Of a DNA stretch of 56,049 bases, positions 562 through 40,778 are shown in pieces; the stretch's first letter is position 1; each line of letters starts with the position of its first letter. The notes beneath the pieces are model-generated. The model was given only the letters and a program-made list of their open reading frames with translations, made no database searches and had not been told where the DNA came from. The DNA is from Gammaproteobacteria bacterium (GTDB taxonomy: Bacteria; Pseudomonadota; Gammaproteobacteria; Steroidobacterales; GCA-2729495): NCBI GenBank assembly GCA_003695765.1, contig RFHQ01000201.1, positions 1 through 56,049 of the forward strand, in the 5' to 3' direction. A program made the position numbers and the translations under genes.

Positions 562-1710
562 CTACTGCGGCGCTGCCCGCGTCGGCTGGGCCAGCTCCGC
601 CGGCGCGCCCGGCTTCGGCTTTGGCGGCCGTTTCGGCGGGCGCTTCGGCTTGGCCGGTTGCGCCTCGAGCTGCAGCGCTTCGTCCATGCAGATGATGCTG
701 TACTTCGCCTTGGCCGACGGCCGCACGCCTTTTGGCTCGACGATCTCCAGCCGGCGCCAGCCCTTGTAGGTCGGCCCCTTCTGCGAGCCGCCGCCGGCGC
801 TGAGCCGGCCGGACGGATCCGGCTTGGCGAAGGTCTGCGACCAGGGGCTGATCGCCTTGACGCCCGGGCCGTTGAACTGCACGCCGAAGATCGGCGAGCG
901 CGAGCCGTCGTGGGCCACGGTACGGTATTTCACGATGCCCTTGCGGTTGGCGACGATCCGGCCGGTGAACCGGATGCTCATCGGGCACTTGCCGATGTAG
1001 TTCGGCTTGTCGACCTCGAACTCGACCCGCTTGACCAGTGGCACCAGGCGCGCGGGTTTCGGCGGCTTCTTGTCACCGCCATCCGGTTTGCCCTTGCCGG
1101 GCGCCGGTTTGCCGGTCTTCGTGCCGACGCACTTGACCCAGACATCGACCGGTTCGGAATCGGTGGCGATGTGGCCCTTGACCGGCCCCTTGTCACAGAA
1201 CAACCAGGCCTTGGACTTGAAGGCATCCTCGTAGCGCAGCGTGAAGCCCTGTTTCACCAGTTCCTTCTTCGATAGCCCGGTCTCGATGGCGAGTGTCCGC
1301 AGTTCGTCGTTGCAGGCCTTCACAGCATTGAAAGAGCCCAGCTTGCCGTGCGGGACGCTGACGGTGATCTGTTCCTTGATGAACTCGCCGCGCTTGGTCA
1401 CCAGCGTCTTCTTGCCTCTCACGCCGGCGATTTCCACGCTCGCTGAACTGGCGCTGCGCGGCCGCTCGCAGTAACCGGCGATGGTCGTTACGAAGGTCAG
1501 GTTCTGGTTCTTCTTGCCAACGAAGTCGAATCGCTCCGGATGCTCGGAATAGACCTTGAACACCGGGCCGGTTACCGGCAGGCGCACACCGATCGGTGGC
1601 GCCGAGCCCATCTTGTACATGCCCTCGGTGACCGAGACGAACGAATTCGCGATCGCGGTGACCGGCAAGCAGGGCAGGCTCAGCAGGCCAGTGAGCAGCA
1701 GACGTCGCAT
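562..1710 (-). CDS. secreted protein of unknown function with Lys/Pro-rich tail
   Basis: The 382-residue product begins MRRLLLTGLLSLPCLPVTAIA, a clear signal peptide, preceded by a G-rich ribosome-binding site. The body contains several well-spaced cysteines (for example around GYCERP, KACNDE, LFCDKG, VKCVG, KCPMS, IICMD) suggesting periplasmic disulfides, and two lysine/proline-rich linkers: one near the middle (GKPAPGKGKPDGGDKKPPKP) and one at the C-terminus (KPKRPPKRPPKPKPG). I do not recognise the family. It is convergent with the cytochrome gene and divergent from the DUF1800 gene. The same strand stays open far upstream (to about 4710), but that extension is antisense to two good genes and is not coding. 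Confidence 0.75.
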   Translation of the reverse strand: MRRLLLTGLLSLPCLPVTAIANSFVSVTEGMYKMGSAPPIGVRLPVTGPVFKVYSEHPERFDFVGKKNQNLTFVTTIAGYCERPRSASSASVEIAGVRGKKTLVTKRGEFIKEQITVSVPHGKLGSFNAVKACNDELRTLAIETGLSKKELVKQGFTLRYEDAFKSKAWLFCDKGPVKGHIATDSEPVDVWVKCVGTKTGKPAPGKGKPDGGDKKPPKPARLVPLVKRVEFEVDKPNYIGKCPMSIRFTGRIVANRKGIVKYRTVAHDGSRSPIFGVQFNGPGVKAISPWSQTFAKPDPSGRLSAGGGSQKGPTYKGWRRLEIVEPKGVRPSAKAKYSIICMDEALQLEAQPAKPKRPPKRPPKPKPGAPAELAQPTRAAPQ

Positions 1711-25505: not shown

Positions 25506-25910
25506 ATGGCGGCGGATATGAGCGAGATGGACATCAGGATGGACCGCAACGGTCTTTACCGGGAGGAAGTGTTCACCGACCGGCGCGTGGGAACGATCCA
25601 GCGCCTCACGCCGGTGGACGCCGACGGCCAGGCGGATCCGGCACGCGCGGTCATCTACGTCGGTCAGGCACAGTTGATGACCCGCGCCGGACCCTTGCCG
25701 TTGAGCTTCGAGATACCGGCCGCGAGCCTGTCCGAGGCCGTGGACAGGTTCGCCGACAGCGCCAACGCCGCGGTCAACGAGGCGATGCAGCGCCTCGAGG
25801 AGATTCGCCGCGAGGCGGCCTCCTCGATCATCGTGCCCGGCAGCGAGGGCGCCGGCGGTGGCGGCGTTCCCGGCGGTGGCGTGCCCGGTGGCGGCATCCA
25901 GATGCGCTGA
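25506..25910 (+). CDS. small protein with Gly-rich tail, first gene of the carotenoid operon
   Basis: This 134-residue protein has no signal or membrane segment. An acidic/basic N-terminus (MDRNGLYREEVFTDRRVGTIQRL), a mixed beta region (ARAVIYVGQAQLMTRAGPLPLSFEIP), a helix (VDRFADSANAAVNEAMQRLEEIRRE) and a repeat tail (GGGGVPGGGVPGGGI) are seen. I do not recognise the family. It ends 6 bases before crtY, so it is almost surely in the same transcript. Start choice: ATG 25506 has GAGG 9 bases upstream; ATG 25518 is an alternative. Confidence 0.72.
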   Translation: MAADMSEMDIRMDRNGLYREEVFTDRRVGTIQRLTPVDADGQADPARAVIYVGQAQLMTRAGPLPLSFEIPAASLSEAVDRFADSANAAVNEAMQRLEEIRREAASSIIVPGSEGAGGGGVPGGGVPGGGIQMR

Positions 25911-36471: not shown

Positions 36472-36544
36472 CGCGGATAGCGGCCTGCCGGGCCGGTCGC
36501 GGCCCTGTCTCCTGCAGCTATATCGGCCGGTGGGGCCGCGGTCT

Positions 36545-37660
36545 TTAGTCGACCGCCTCCGACTGGCTCCATTCAGCGATATGCAGGCTCTGGCTGATGC
36601 ACTGGACCAGCGCGTGCTGCGAATGCACGCCGACTTTGGCAAAAATGTTCCGCAGATGAGTGCGCGCCGTGTGCACGCTGACCGACAACTGCTCCGCGAT
36701 CTCGGCCACGCTCTTGCCTTGGCACAGAGCCTGCGCCAGTTGCGCCTCGGCCGGTGTCAATCCGAAAAAGACGGCGAGCAGGTCCTCGGCCGGGAGCACC
36801 CGCTGCGTTGGATCGTGGACCATGCCGATGGCCAGGCCGAGCTGCTGGTTCAGCGTCGCGCGGCGCTCGTCCCAGGGCAGCGCATACAGCACGAGCTGGT
36901 AGGCGGCGTCGTCCCTCTCGCGGACGACACGGATGCCCAGCGACCGTTCGGCAACCGGCAGCTCGCCGAGCCGCGCGGCCTGCAGGAAGGTCATGACCCG
37001 GGCCCGGGCCGTGACGTTCTGGATCTCGAGCCGGCCCTCCCGCTCGCAAAGCCCGTCGTCCTGGGCCAGCAGCTGGCGTGCCGCGGCATTGGCGTAGCAG
37101 AGCCGCGCGTCGGGGCCCAGTACGATGACGCCGCGCGGCGCCCCGTCGAGGACCAGGCGGGCGACCCGGTAATCGTCCTGTAGACGGACGAAATGCCGAT
37201 TGATCGAGCCGGCGCGTCTGAGGTAACGCCCGAGCACGCGGAAGGTGTCGCGGTCGGCCTGACTGAAGTCGCCGCCGTCGGCGGTCAGCAGCAGCAGCGC
37301 GCTGACGTAGGCCTCGTCGGCACTGATCGTCATCGCCAGATAGCCACCGGGCGGCCAGCCGGCGGCGCCATTGCCGCGGCTTTCGGCCAGCACGGTGCCG
37401 GGCGGTTCCCGGCCGAGACGCTGCAGCAGGCTGCCGGGGCGATGCCCGTGGCTGGCGATCTCCGCTAGCAGGCCGTCGTCGATGCGGTGCTGCACGGACA
37501 GCATCTGCTCCGGCGCGTCCCGGGCCCAGATCAGGTAGGCGGTACCGCTGGCCGCGAAATAGTCGTTGGTCTCGGCGACGAACGCCTGGAGACGCGGCGG
37601 TTCGCCGCAGGCGGCCTCGTAGGCCTGGGCGACGAGTTCGGGCAGGGTCGCGTTCACCAT
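36545..37660 (-). CDS. LuxR-family transcriptional regulator with PAS-like domain
   Basis: The 371-residue protein has a PAS-like middle (RLVLDGAPRGVIVLGPDARLCYANAAARQLLA) and a C-terminal LuxR helix-turn-helix (FGLTPAEAQLAQALCQGKSVAEIAEQLSVSVHTARTHLRNIFAKVGV). No receiver or acyl-homoserine-lactone domain was recognised. The ATG at 37660 has GAGGGGGG upstream; TTG 37681 lies upstream of that site and is less likely. A TATAGT -10 is present on the minus strand at 37715-37720. It could regulate the catabolic operon upstream or the channel gene downstream; neither is shown. Confidence 0.9.
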   Translation of the reverse strand: MVNATLPELVAQAYEAACGEPPRLQAFVAETNDYFAASGTAYLIWARDAPEQMLSVQHRIDDGLLAEIASHGHRPGSLLQRLGREPPGTVLAESRGNGAAGWPPGGYLAMTISADEAYVSALLLLTADGGDFSQADRDTFRVLGRYLRRAGSINRHFVRLQDDYRVARLVLDGAPRGVIVLGPDARLCYANAAARQLLAQDDGLCEREGRLEIQNVTARARVMTFLQAARLGELPVAERSLGIRVVRERDDAAYQLVLYALPWDERRATLNQQLGLAIGMVHDPTQRVLPAEDLLAVFFGLTPAEAQLAQALCQGKSVAEIAEQLSVSVHTARTHLRNIFAKVGVHSQHALVQCISQSLHIAEWSQSEAVD

Positions 37661-38034
37661 CGCTGTCCGCGCCCCCCTCAACAGCGCGGTTTCGTTGCCG
37701 GCGCCATCGCCGACACTATATGTGAGAAAAAACTACCATATGCGGTTGCATGGGACGAATGTCCATCGGCGCGGATCTACTTCAAATGAGGTATTCGCGG
37801 GAGATTGCAAGCCACTGCTTTACAATAAGTTTTCGAAGTCATGACAAATCAACGGCCGCCGGTCTGCTGCATTATGTCAAAAATTTAACCCATTTGTAGG
37901 ATTGTGTCGATAACGGCCGGCCGGGAGAATGACCGTCAGGCATTAGGGATGCCTAGATCCTCCAGATCTTCCCACTGCGCCGGTCGGTGTCCCGGGTCCC
38001 CTTAACCGGGTTAGAACACCGAACCGGCGCTTTT
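37661..38034. other. 374-base non-coding gap, AT-richer than surroundings
   Basis: No convincing protein gene lies here. The left part holds the regulator's promoter region; 37720-37920 has A/T runs unlike the rest of the window, including CTTTACAAT (TACAAT at 37821-37826) on the plus strand; the right part holds small hairpins and a terminator described separately. Confidence 0.6.
37715..37720 (-). promoter_or_regulatory. putative -10 (TATAGT) of the LuxR-type gene
   Basis: Minus-strand CACATATAGTGTC lies 54 bases before the ATG at 37660, in an AT-rich context. The -35 region is poor. Confidence 0.4.
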
Positions 38035-38036
38035 TT
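37921..38036 (+). ncRNA. candidate small RNA with anti-Shine-Dalgarno-like loop
   Basis: Three hairpins follow each other on the plus strand. First, AGGCAT/ATGCCT (37938-37943 with 37949-37954) with loop TAGGG. Second, AGATC/GATCT (37955-37959 with 37965-37969) with loop CTCCA, so CCTCC at 37959-37963 is partly exposed. Third, the terminator at 37977-38036. No plus-strand gene follows or precedes that would need this terminator: both neighbours are on the minus strand. The 5' end is a guess, set by GATAAC at 37909-37914; TACAAT at 37821 would give a longer RNA. Confidence 0.38.
37977..38036 (+). terminator. strong intrinsic terminator, plus strand
   Basis: GCGCCGGT (37977-37984) pairs with ACCGGCGC (38023-38030), and CGGTGT (37985-37990) with ACACCG (38016-38021), one A bulged; an inner CCCGG/CCGGG is possible. 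TTTTTT follows at 38031-38036, overlapping the MFS stop codon on the other strand. On the minus strand no T-run follows the stem. Confidence 0.8.
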
Positions 38037-39261
38037 ATCCGCGTGCCCTCGATCCCGGCCGAAGCGCGGTCGCCAGGAACAAGACCAGCGCCAGCCCGCA
38101 GCCGGCCGCACCGACGTAGTTGGCCGCGAGCAGGCTGTCGCCGCTCATCAGCTGCCCGGCGAGGAACGGTCCGAGAGCGAAGCCGCCGGTCTGCGCTGCG
38201 GGGATCAGCACGCTGATCCGGCCGTCCGGGTCGGCACTCGCGACCGAGCCCATCAGGTAGGGGCCGGTGAAGTTCCAGAAGCTCTGGAAGACCGCGGCGG
38301 TCACGGCGAAGCGCAGGAAGCTGAAGTCTCCCTGCAGCATCAGGATCGCGCCCGCCTGGACCAGCAGCGCGACCCCCACCGGCAGGACGCGGCCGCCACG
38401 GCCGGCCAGCCACGAGGCCGCCAGCGCGCCGCTGACGCCGACCGTCGTGCTGATCGCGATCGCCTGACCGGCGCCGGTGGCGCTGAGTCCACCGGCCTCG
38501 CCGATGCGTAGCAGGAAGGTCCAGATGCCGCCGAGGCCGGTGCACCAGATCAGCAGGCAGGCCAGCGCGGCGATTGCCGGACCGCGGCCGCCGCTCGCGG
38601 CCGGTGCCCGTCCGGCGACGGGCTCGTCGCTATCGGCGGCGGCCCGGGTCGCGCTGTCCGGCACCCAGGGCAGCAGGGTCAGGACCGCGGCCGCGAGGAT
38701 CGCCAGCGGCAGCAACACGCCGGCGACGCCGAAGCGCTGCGCCAGCGGTGGCAGCGCCAGCAGCGTCAACACCCCGACGCTGACCTGCGCGGCGATGGAA
38801 AAGGCGAAGTTGCGATCGTGTTGCGAGCTGCGATTGATGATGCCGATCGCGACGGCGAAGGCCGTCCCCTGGCCGGCGAAGCCGGCGACGAAGCGCAACC
38901 CCGCCAGCAGGTTCGCGTCGCTCTGGAAGCTCGACAGGAGATTGGCGGCGATTACGACGATGATCGCGAGGCCGCCGGCGAGACGCCAGTCGAGGCTGCG
39001 GATCCACAGGCTCGCGGCGATGGACGCCAGTGCGCCGCCGAAGATCTCGGCCGAGACGATGCGGCCGATCTGCTCCGGGCCGAAGCCGAGCTGGCTGCCC
39101 AGCGCCTGTGCCAGGATCGGTGCGGCCAGGATCCCGAAGACGCCGATGCAGCTGAACGCGACCGCGGCCGCGACGGTCCCGGGACGGTCATGCGGGTTGC
39201 GCGCTTCGGCGCTCGGCGCCACTTGGCTGCCGGCGATGGGATTGTCCTGTTTTGGCTCCAT
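38035..39261 (-). CDS. MFS transporter
   Basis: The product of about 408 residues has twelve probable membrane helices (for example VAAAVAFSCIGVFGILAAPIL, LAGGLAIIVVIAANLLSSF, GVAGVLLPLAILAAAVLTLLP, PAIAALACLLIWCTGLGGIW). Relaxed MFS motifs are seen after helix 2. The ATG at 39261 has GGGGAGA 7 bases upstream; the ATG at 39282 overlaps the dehydrogenase stop (ATGA) and is an alternative. Last gene of the oxygenase/dehydrogenase operon, so it probably moves the operon's substrate or product. Confidence 0.87.
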   Translation of the reverse strand: MEPKQDNPIAGSQVAPSAEARNPHDRPGTVAAAVAFSCIGVFGILAAPILAQALGSQLGFGPEQIGRIVSAEIFGGALASIAASLWIRSLDWRLAGGLAIIVVIAANLLSSFQSDANLLAGLRFVAGFAGQGTAFAVAIGIINRSSQHDRNFAFSIAAQVSVGVLTLLALPPLAQRFGVAGVLLPLAILAAAVLTLLPWVPDSATRAAADSDEPVAGRAPAASGGRGPAIAALACLLIWCTGLGGIWTFLLRIGEAGGLSATGAGQAIAISTTVGVSGALAASWLAGRGGRVLPVGVALLVQAGAILMLQGDFSFLRFAVTAAVFQSFWNFTGPYLMGSVASADPDGRISVLIPAAQTGGFALGPFLAGQLMSGDSLLAANYVGAAGCGLALVLFLATALRPGSRARG

Positions 39262-39278
39262 GTCAATCTCCCCGGTGG

Positions 39279-40778
39279 TCATCGACCGCCCCGGCCCAGC
39301 CGCGCGAGCGGAAAATCCCGCCGCGGGATGGACACGGTCTTGGCCTCGGTGAACAACTCGCGGCTCCATTCGCCGCCGTCCCGGCCGATGCCGGAATGCT
39401 TGTAGCCGCCGAACGGTGCGCGCAGTTCGCGATAAAGCGGCGTATTGATCCAGACCACGCCGGTGCGCAGCTCGTCCGCCGCCTGCATGGCCTTGCCGAT
39501 GTCACGAGTCCAGACGTAGGCGACGAGGCCAAACTCGCTGTCGTTGGCGATTGCCAGTGCCTCGTCGAAATCGTCGAAAGTGAGCACCGACACGAAGGGC
39601 CCGAAGATCTCTTCGCGACAGATCCGGCTGGCATTGTCCGGCGCCCGCACGACCGTCGGCTCGACGTAGTACCCGGGTCCGGCCTCGCTGCGCCGCCCGC
39701 CGGCCAGGATCTCGGCGCCTTCTTCGCGAGCGATGTCCACGTAGCCGAGCACCCGCTCCAGCTGTGCCTGCGAAATCAGCGGGCCGATCTCGGTTTGGTC
39801 GTCCGCCGGCGGGCCGATCCGCAGCCGCGCGACCCGCGCGAGGAAGCGCTCCAGAAATTCATCGACGATCGAGCCTTGCAGCAGCAGGCGGGTACCGGCC
39901 AGGCACTGCTGTCCATTGTTCGAGAAACTCGCCAGCAGTGCGCTGTCGAGCGCCCGGTCGAGATCGGCATCGGCACAGACGATGTTGGCCGACTTGCCGC
40001 CGAGTTCGGTGACCACCCGCGTCAAGCTTCGGCCGGCCGTCGCAGCGATCTGCCGGCCGGTCTCGGTGCCGCCGGTGAAGGCGATGACATCGACGTCCGG
40101 GTGCGCCACGAGCGCTTCGCCGGTCACCGGCCCACGACCATTGACCAGGTTGACGACGCCGTCGGGCAGGCCGGCCTCCTTCAGCAGTTCCATCAGCCGC
40201 AGGAAGGGCAACGGCGTCAGTTCCGACGGCTTCAGCACGGCGCTGTTGCCGAAGGCGATCGCGCCGGCCAGCTTCATCGTCGACAGCGCCAGCGGCGCAT
40301 TCCAGGGCGCGATCAGGCCCGCGACGCCGACCGGCTCGTGGCGCACGAGCGTCAGGTAGTCCGGGTGCTGATCGTAGAGCCGGTCGGCGACCTGGGCGAT
40401 GAATTCGGCGAAGAACTCGAAGTTCATCTGCGCCCGCTTGACGTGCCGGCCGCGCGTCTGCGCGATCGGGATGCCGGCGCCGAGCGTCTCCAGCTGCGCC
40501 AGTTCCTCGGCATGCCGTAACAGCAGCGCATGGATGCGCAGCAGGACCGCCTTGCGTTCCGCCACCGGGGCGCGCGACCACTCGCCGGCCTCGAAAGCCG
40601 CTCGGGCGCTGCTGACCGCGGCCGCTACCGACGCGGCGTCGTCCTCGGCCAGCTCCGTGATCGGTTCCGTGGTCGCCGGGTCGATGACCGGCAGGCGCTG
40701 GGCGTGACTGGCCGGCCGCTGCCAGGCGCCGTCCCGCCAGGGACCGATCAGTGCCGGAATGCGATCTCGTGGCTGCAT
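39279..40778 (-). CDS. NAD(P)-dependent aldehyde dehydrogenase (HpaE/BetB-like)
   Basis: A complete ALDH of 499 residues from the ATG at 40778, which has GGAG 6 bases before; ATG 40790 lacks such a site. Seen: GVAGLIAPWNAPLALSTMKLA, VLKPSELTPL, FTGGTETGR for nucleotide binding, catalytic E258 in VVTELGGKS, catalytic C292 in NNGQQCLAG, EEIFGPFVSVLTFDD and FGGYKHSGIGRDGG. It oxidises an aldehyde, perhaps a hydroxymuconate semialdehyde or similar product of the adjacent monooxygenase pathway. Operon with flanking genes (gaps 14 and 17 bases). Confidence 0.94.
   Translation of the reverse strand: MQPRDRIPALIGPWRDGAWQRPASHAQRLPVIDPATTEPITELAEDDAASVAAAVSSARAAFEAGEWSRAPVAERKAVLLRIHALLLRHAEELAQLETLGAGIPIAQTRGRHVKRAQMNFEFFAEFIAQVADRLYDQHPDYLTLVRHEPVGVAGLIAPWNAPLALSTMKLAGAIAFGNSAVLKPSELTPLPFLRLMELLKEAGLPDGVVNLVNGRGPVTGEALVAHPDVDVIAFTGGTETGRQIAATAGRSLTRVVTELGGKSANIVCADADLDRALDSALLASFSNNGQQCLAGTRLLLQGSIVDEFLERFLARVARLRIGPPADDQTEIGPLISQAQLERVLGYVDIAREEGAEILAGGRRSEAGPGYYVEPTVVRAPDNASRICREEIFGPFVSVLTFDDFDEALAIANDSEFGLVAYVWTRDIGKAMQAADELRTGVVWINTPLYRELRAPFGGYKHSGIGRDGGEWSRELFTEAKTVSIPRRDFPLARLGRGGR

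Follow-up and report, generated by a model that had tools for sequence, protein, structure and literature searches.

A predicted small RNA with invariant C-rich segments, divergent from a luxR-type gene in uncultured gammaproteobacteria

LuxR-type activators commonly sit near position -42, with their box overlapping the -35 element. The Betaproteobacteria toxic small RNA (RF02278) is of anti-Shine-Dalgarno nature. It is short and has a terminator (PMC4603805). The sX13 RNA of Xanthomonas is described as highly structured, bearing three C-rich loops and repressing mRNAs that carry G-rich motifs near their translation starts; its gene adjoins polA and it is Hfq-independent (PMC3771888). GcvB, OxyS and SgrS are encoded divergently from the genes of their own regulators, GcvA, OxyR and SgrR (PMC4423775, PMC1557403).

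Here we analyse a 56,049-nt stretch of gammaproteobacterial DNA (contig RFHQ01000201.1 of assembly GCA_003695765.1, positions 1 to 56,049; hereafter the window), in which a gap between two leftward genes is on balance likely to encode a LuxR-activated, trans-acting anti-Shine-Dalgarno small RNA of ~100 nt, whose C-rich segments would block G-rich ribosome-binding sites.

Predicted structure and conservation of the RNA

The predicted RNA and its parts are as follows.

37937..38036, plus strand: predicted small RNA, ~100 nt, with the 5' end placed from a -10-like site and the 3' end from the T-run
37938..37954, plus strand: hairpin 1, stem AGGCAT (37938-43)/ATGCCT (37949-54), loop UAGGG
37955..37969, plus strand: hairpin 2, stem AGATC (37955-59)/GATCT (37965-69), loop CTCCA, presenting CCUCCA (37959-37964)
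37971..37976, plus strand: linker CCCACU, invariant in seven of seven genomes and unpaired for the most part
37977..38036, plus strand: intrinsic terminator hairpin with T6, from the fold and a seven-genome pair count
37997..38003, plus strand: terminator loop UCCCCUU, the third C-rich segment, invariant in seven of seven genomes

An earlier note on this DNA had described two perfect hairpins with loops TAGGG and CTCCA followed by a strong T6 terminator, pointing rightward between two genes on the opposite strand. Both descriptions are borne out by the sequence, the neighbours being a luxR-type gene and an MFS gene that are both read leftward. The outer stem of the terminator pairs 37977-37990 with 38016-38030 (14 pairs, one bulged base), the inner stem of the predicted fold (37991-37995/38006-38010, 5 bp) encloses a 10-nt loop, and T6 (38031-38036) lies directly 3' of the stem. 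The segment 37921-38036 has a folding energy of -53.5 kcal/mol compared with -37.5 (sd 3.7) for 200 dinucleotide shuffles, none of which is equally low (z -4.3). When the 116 nt are folded in isolation, the minimum free energy (MFE) structure has a longer pairing that partly displaces both 5' hairpins; folding from the predicted 5' end at 37937 yields both of them, with hairpin 1 gaining a U-G pair. Over 36500-39500, a terminator scanner that accepts only loops of 3-8 reports no terminators, and a promoter scanner reports one minus-strand promoter-like site and no plus-strand site at the RNA.

When 40 family genomes are searched at the DNA level, the stretch is recovered in seven, namely four of the five genomes of the window's genus and three of the four of genus g9. 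Anchored on TTG, a 17-nt spacer and nAnnnT, these seven orthologues give RNAs of 96-102 nt that start at the first hairpin, and a covariance model built on them scores 95-110 bits on the seven and at most 23.7 bits on everything else in the 40 genomes. The same model, run with stricter filters on 296 genomes sampled from the order, finds no new match above 23 bits. A pattern scan of genome contigs returns 57 stretches, six of which the model confirms, all of them relatives already found; the best covariance score among the remaining 51 is 15.8 bits. Rfam 15 has no match at its gathering scores anywhere in the window and none up to E 5 over 37680-38060, blastn against phage and plasmid records (E <= 0.01) gives no match, and a literature search by RNA kind and one accession number, rather than by name, brought up nothing recognised as the window's RNA. 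The RNA appears to represent a new family within a known kind of regulator, without a match in Rfam 15.

The terminator is the best supported part of the structure. Across the seven genomes 96.6% of its cells are paired, 10 of its 17 pairs never vary and five are changed on both sides, a count reached by 3 of 500 shuffles; none of 500 shuffles reaches its covariation score, and all seven orthologues end in six or more U. Hairpin 1 is formed in the four genomes of the window's genus, with one pair changed on both sides, and does not exist as such in genus g9. The stem of hairpin 2 is unchanged within the window's genus (it is missing from the MFE fold in G001), and in g9 a single longer hairpin with a different stem holds the CCUCCA loop. 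When the whole structure is scored over the four genus genomes, 26 of 500 shuffles do as well in covariation and the sole fully compensated pair sits in hairpin 1, so that the 5' hairpins are less well supported than the terminator. Loss of the upstream hairpins with the terminator alone retained, which the earlier note would have taken as a refutation, is not what is seen: CCUCCA is present in all seven orthologues and hairpin 1 throughout the four genus genomes.

Within the genus, identities calculated by one procedure at fixed offsets, without codon alignment, are 69-85% for the RNA, 61-73% for the promoter block, 24-43% for the spacer, and 35-56% and 57-67% for the luxR and MFS gene stretches. 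Comparison of sequences establishes a conserved predicted RNA and its structure, and this conservation supports the proposal that the plus strand carries a small RNA gene whose CCUCC loop is exposed. We consider a real, lineage-restricted small RNA gene very likely here, and infer its transcription.

Flanking genes, promoter and candidate boxes

The RNA is flanked by two minus-strand genes.

36545..37681, minus strand: luxR-type regulator gene encoding a GerE domain and pointing away from the RNA, start probably ATG 37660
38035..39369, minus strand: gene of an MFS transporter that runs towards the RNA, with a stop codon overlapping the RNA T-run in the window

The start of the luxR gene at ATG 37660 follows from comparison with the shorter G039 protein, and no autoinducer-binding Pfam domain is detected in the LuxR-type protein at E <= 0.001. 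Its distribution follows that of the RNA: a close luxR orthologue (E <= 2.3e-49) occurs in six of the seven RNA-bearing genomes and in none of the 33 other family genomes, with weaker relatives in 20 further genomes (best 2.9e-29). In six of the seven loci luxR lies to the left of the RNA, adjacent and divergent. The seventh locus, in G037, counts against a role of LuxR, as it keeps the RNA without an adjacent luxR, whose position is occupied by a plus-strand FGGY carbohydrate-kinase gene (L012 33-1151). The completeness of G037 (78%) and of G038, a member of genus g9 (73%), bears on absences in both genomes.

Between luxR and the predicted RNA lie the following promoter elements and boxes.

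37902..37907, plus strand: -35-like TTGTGT, TTG in seven of seven, 17-nt spacer, consensus match only
37925..37930, plus strand: -10-like GAGAAT, nAnnnT in seven of seven at the same spacing, consensus match only
37883..37904, strand unassigned: box 1, an imperfect palindrome over the -35, centred at ~-43 of the predicted start
37775..37796, strand unassigned: candidate box 2, at a distance of 108 bp from box 1, weak here and stronger in relatives

The -10-like sites are poor, matching three to four of six consensus bases, so the start at ~37937 is a prediction only. Box 1 is clearest in G039 (AATCACC-N6-GGTGATT). In the six loci with luxR, the distances between box 1 and box 2 are 108, 108, 108, 109, 111 and 112 bp. 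Box 2 is equalled by none of 300 shuffles in four of these loci, by one in G002 and by 27 in the window. In G037, with no luxR at the locus, a second box is not recognisable and box 1 is the weakest of the seven, and the RNA is intact. A matrix built on eye-picked sites that exclude box 1 gives box 1 a p value (per random 22-mer) of ~0.002 or below in six of seven genomes and of 0.011 in G037. Scanned over the seven RNA-bearing genomes, the box pattern has four exact places, all of them at this locus (G001, G004, G036 and G039). Since the boxes of G001, G004 and G036 were known when the pattern was written, these three match by construction, and what is informative is the absence of exact places outside the locus. 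One-mismatch places elsewhere in the seven genomes number 18, and neither of the window's own boxes is within one mismatch of the pattern.

Comparison thus establishes the boxes and the co-occurrence of luxR with the RNA. Because box 1 sits at ~-43, box 2 appears only with luxR and the two genes co-occur, we read the LuxR-type protein as probably the activator of the RNA, its binding and sign being deduced from these features; that the RNA is under LuxR control at all seems to us quite probable. The LuxR-type protein would bind the palindromic box pair, box 1, centred near -43, would activate the RNA promoter, and box 2, 108-112 bp luxR-ward of box 1, would serve cooperative binding or autoregulation.

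The convergent gene suggests a different role for the transcript, that of a cis-antisense RNA acting mainly on the MFS mRNA through overlap or contact of the 3' ends. An MFS gene is found on the right of the RNA in all seven loci. Its stop codon and the T-run overlap in the window and are 6-27 nt apart in four others (G001, G002, G004 and G037), and since the minus strand has no T-run beyond the hairpin, MFS transcripts may run on. The gap nevertheless widens to 113 nt in G036 and about 225 nt in G039, MFS matches (E <= 1e-20) occur in 33 of the 40 family genomes and the RNA in only seven, and perfect antisense pairing has no need of invariant loops beside changing stems. Taken together, we regard this role as improbable.

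Somewhat more improbable still is that the conserved element is a mere terminator or 3'-UTR element, formed at the end of read-through from upstream or at the end of the MFS mRNA on the minus strand. Intergenic terminators are common, the promoter has weak hexamers, the scanner gives no plus-strand site, and in G037 the kinase-like gene upstream is on the plus strand. Such an element would not account for the conservation of the 5' hairpins and the promoter block, and in six of seven loci the upstream gene is luxR, on the opposite strand. The plus strand carries the T-run and is also slightly favoured by the stem cells (seven G-U versus three A-C).

The C-rich segments and their proposed action

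The trans-acting reading of the RNA draws on three segments, CCUCCA, CCCACU and UCCCCUU, which comparison establishes as invariant in all seven genomes and which are mostly unpaired in the predicted folds; for comparison, the terminator's 3' bulge, which is just as open, varies in six of seven columns. Invariant C-rich loops next to changing stems point to base pairing of the anti-Shine-Dalgarno type. An Hfq gene is found above the Pfam cut-off in all seven RNA-bearing genomes. We propose that the RNA would act in trans, the CCUCCA loop, CCCACU linker and UCCCCUU loop pairing with G-rich ribosome-binding sites; such pairing on several mRNAs would block translation, and the U-tail would be open to Hfq. 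Action by C-rich pairing is, in our judgement, likely, its targets and mechanism being inferred.

We searched four genomes for long complementarity to the RNA (17-mer, at most two mismatches), which yielded 20 places besides the RNA genes, compared with 10 for a control pattern. Inspection of the 20 places revealed no recurring gene or start region. C-rich pairing RNAs often use 6-9 bases, and given this the outcome of the long-complement search neither supports nor refutes the proposal. A 17-nt exact complement of the RNA, in G000:C98 (L008 1500-1605) just 5' of a terminator, was set aside as a target, not being retained in the genus. It adjoins a possible 10-codon frame with AGGAGG. Also set aside was a match at 25574-25598 of the window (92% of 25 bases), which falls inside an ORF and mostly resembles the terminator stem.

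The earlier note had also suggested that the GGG loop could attract CsrA-like proteins, which would make the transcript a protein-titrating RNA of the CsrB/RsmY type acting through GGG or GGA loops. GGG does occur near the 5' hairpin in all seven orthologues and the window's loop reads AGGGA, but ANGGA is confined to the window's copy (one of seven), each RNA holds just one or two GGA, the repeated ANGGA loops of that type are not found, and the GGG is able to pair with the CCC linker; the suggestion did not hold up, and we give titration very little credence. Less credible again is a small protein gene in place of a non-coding RNA, as the frame of at least 18 codons (starts ATG, GTG, GTG) common to three of the four genus genomes is shifted in G001, is missing from the three genomes of the other genus and begins 12-14 nt from the predicted 5' end, leaving little space for a ribosome-binding site.

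Box-associated candidates elsewhere and relation to known systems

Box places elsewhere were scanned at 42 loci in 61 place-and-strand rows, those of genus g3 being fetched in part. Among them, CCTCC, TCCCC and a T-run occur together, besides the RNA locus, only at L209 in G038, a genome with no RNA by the covariance model and no close luxR orthologue. L215 was rejected as a further seed-bearing RNA, its CCTCC falling inside an ORF. The only exact box of G038 lies at L209 (G038:C182), 1501-1516, between a GGDEF gene and mnmE, the latter identified by its Pfam MnmE and TrmE_N domains, and is followed by one candidate.

L209 ~1352-1465, minus strand: G038 candidate RNA, with UCCCCUUA in a hairpin loop, CCUCC and a U8 terminator, after the box

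The candidate folds with z -3.6 into a predicted structure that leaves its CCUCC only partially open; its seed order is reversed relative to the window RNA, and its seven Rfam matches are weak and all sub-threshold. Both seeds follow the box in 276 of 200,000 shuffles, and in 9 of 200,000 when T6 is included as well. Since 61 rows were looked at, the seeds are suggestive rather than decisive of a second RNA with similar seeds in G038.

In three genomes of genus g3, a box leads into a conserved non-coding stretch (L117 2326-2530; L118 ~1180-1373, minus strand; L115 ~952-1160). The box sits 33-48 nt past the stop of a luxR homologue, of which the one scanned, from G011, has a GerE match just under the Pfam cut-off. 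The stretch ends in a long symmetrical terminator, is convergent to a glycosyltransferase gene and lacks these two seeds; as another small-RNA candidate it is a lead.

It is conceivable, though we hold it only tentatively, that a LuxR-type regulator commands a set of RNAs in which 'box plus C-rich seeds' is conserved and the scaffold is exchanged. Such a set would comprise the luxR/MFS RNA of two genera, the rearranged UCCCCUUA/CCUCC RNA by mnmE in G038 and the box-preceded g3 stretch. LuxR-driven C-rich RNAs with exchangeable scaffolds, if true, would provide a natural test of selection on seeds and promoter versus overall fold. The locus itself adds a predicted small RNA family, with a probable regulator and operator, from uncultured gammaproteobacteria.

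The window RNA resembles sX13 in its proposed working principle, several open C-rich segments having been looked for and found here. It differs in having two loops and a linker, with CCUCC rather than CCCC in the first, and in being flanked by luxR-type and MFS genes rather than lying beside polA. The window RNA has no covariance-model match to sX13 or to other Rfam small RNA families. For RF02278 in particular, the window RNA has no match up to E 5 and the G038 RNA is sub-threshold (21.5 bits versus a gathering score of 50). The promoter is like those of LuxR-type regulators in its ~20-bp palindrome that overlaps the -35 and is centred about -43 of the predicted start, and unlike them in the sequence of the box. 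In layout, the adjacent divergent regulator gene at six of seven loci matches GcvB-GcvA, OxyS-OxyR and SgrS-SgrR; what sets the locus apart from these pairs is its GerE/LuxR-type regulator, an unrelated RNA and two candidate boxes a near-fixed distance apart.
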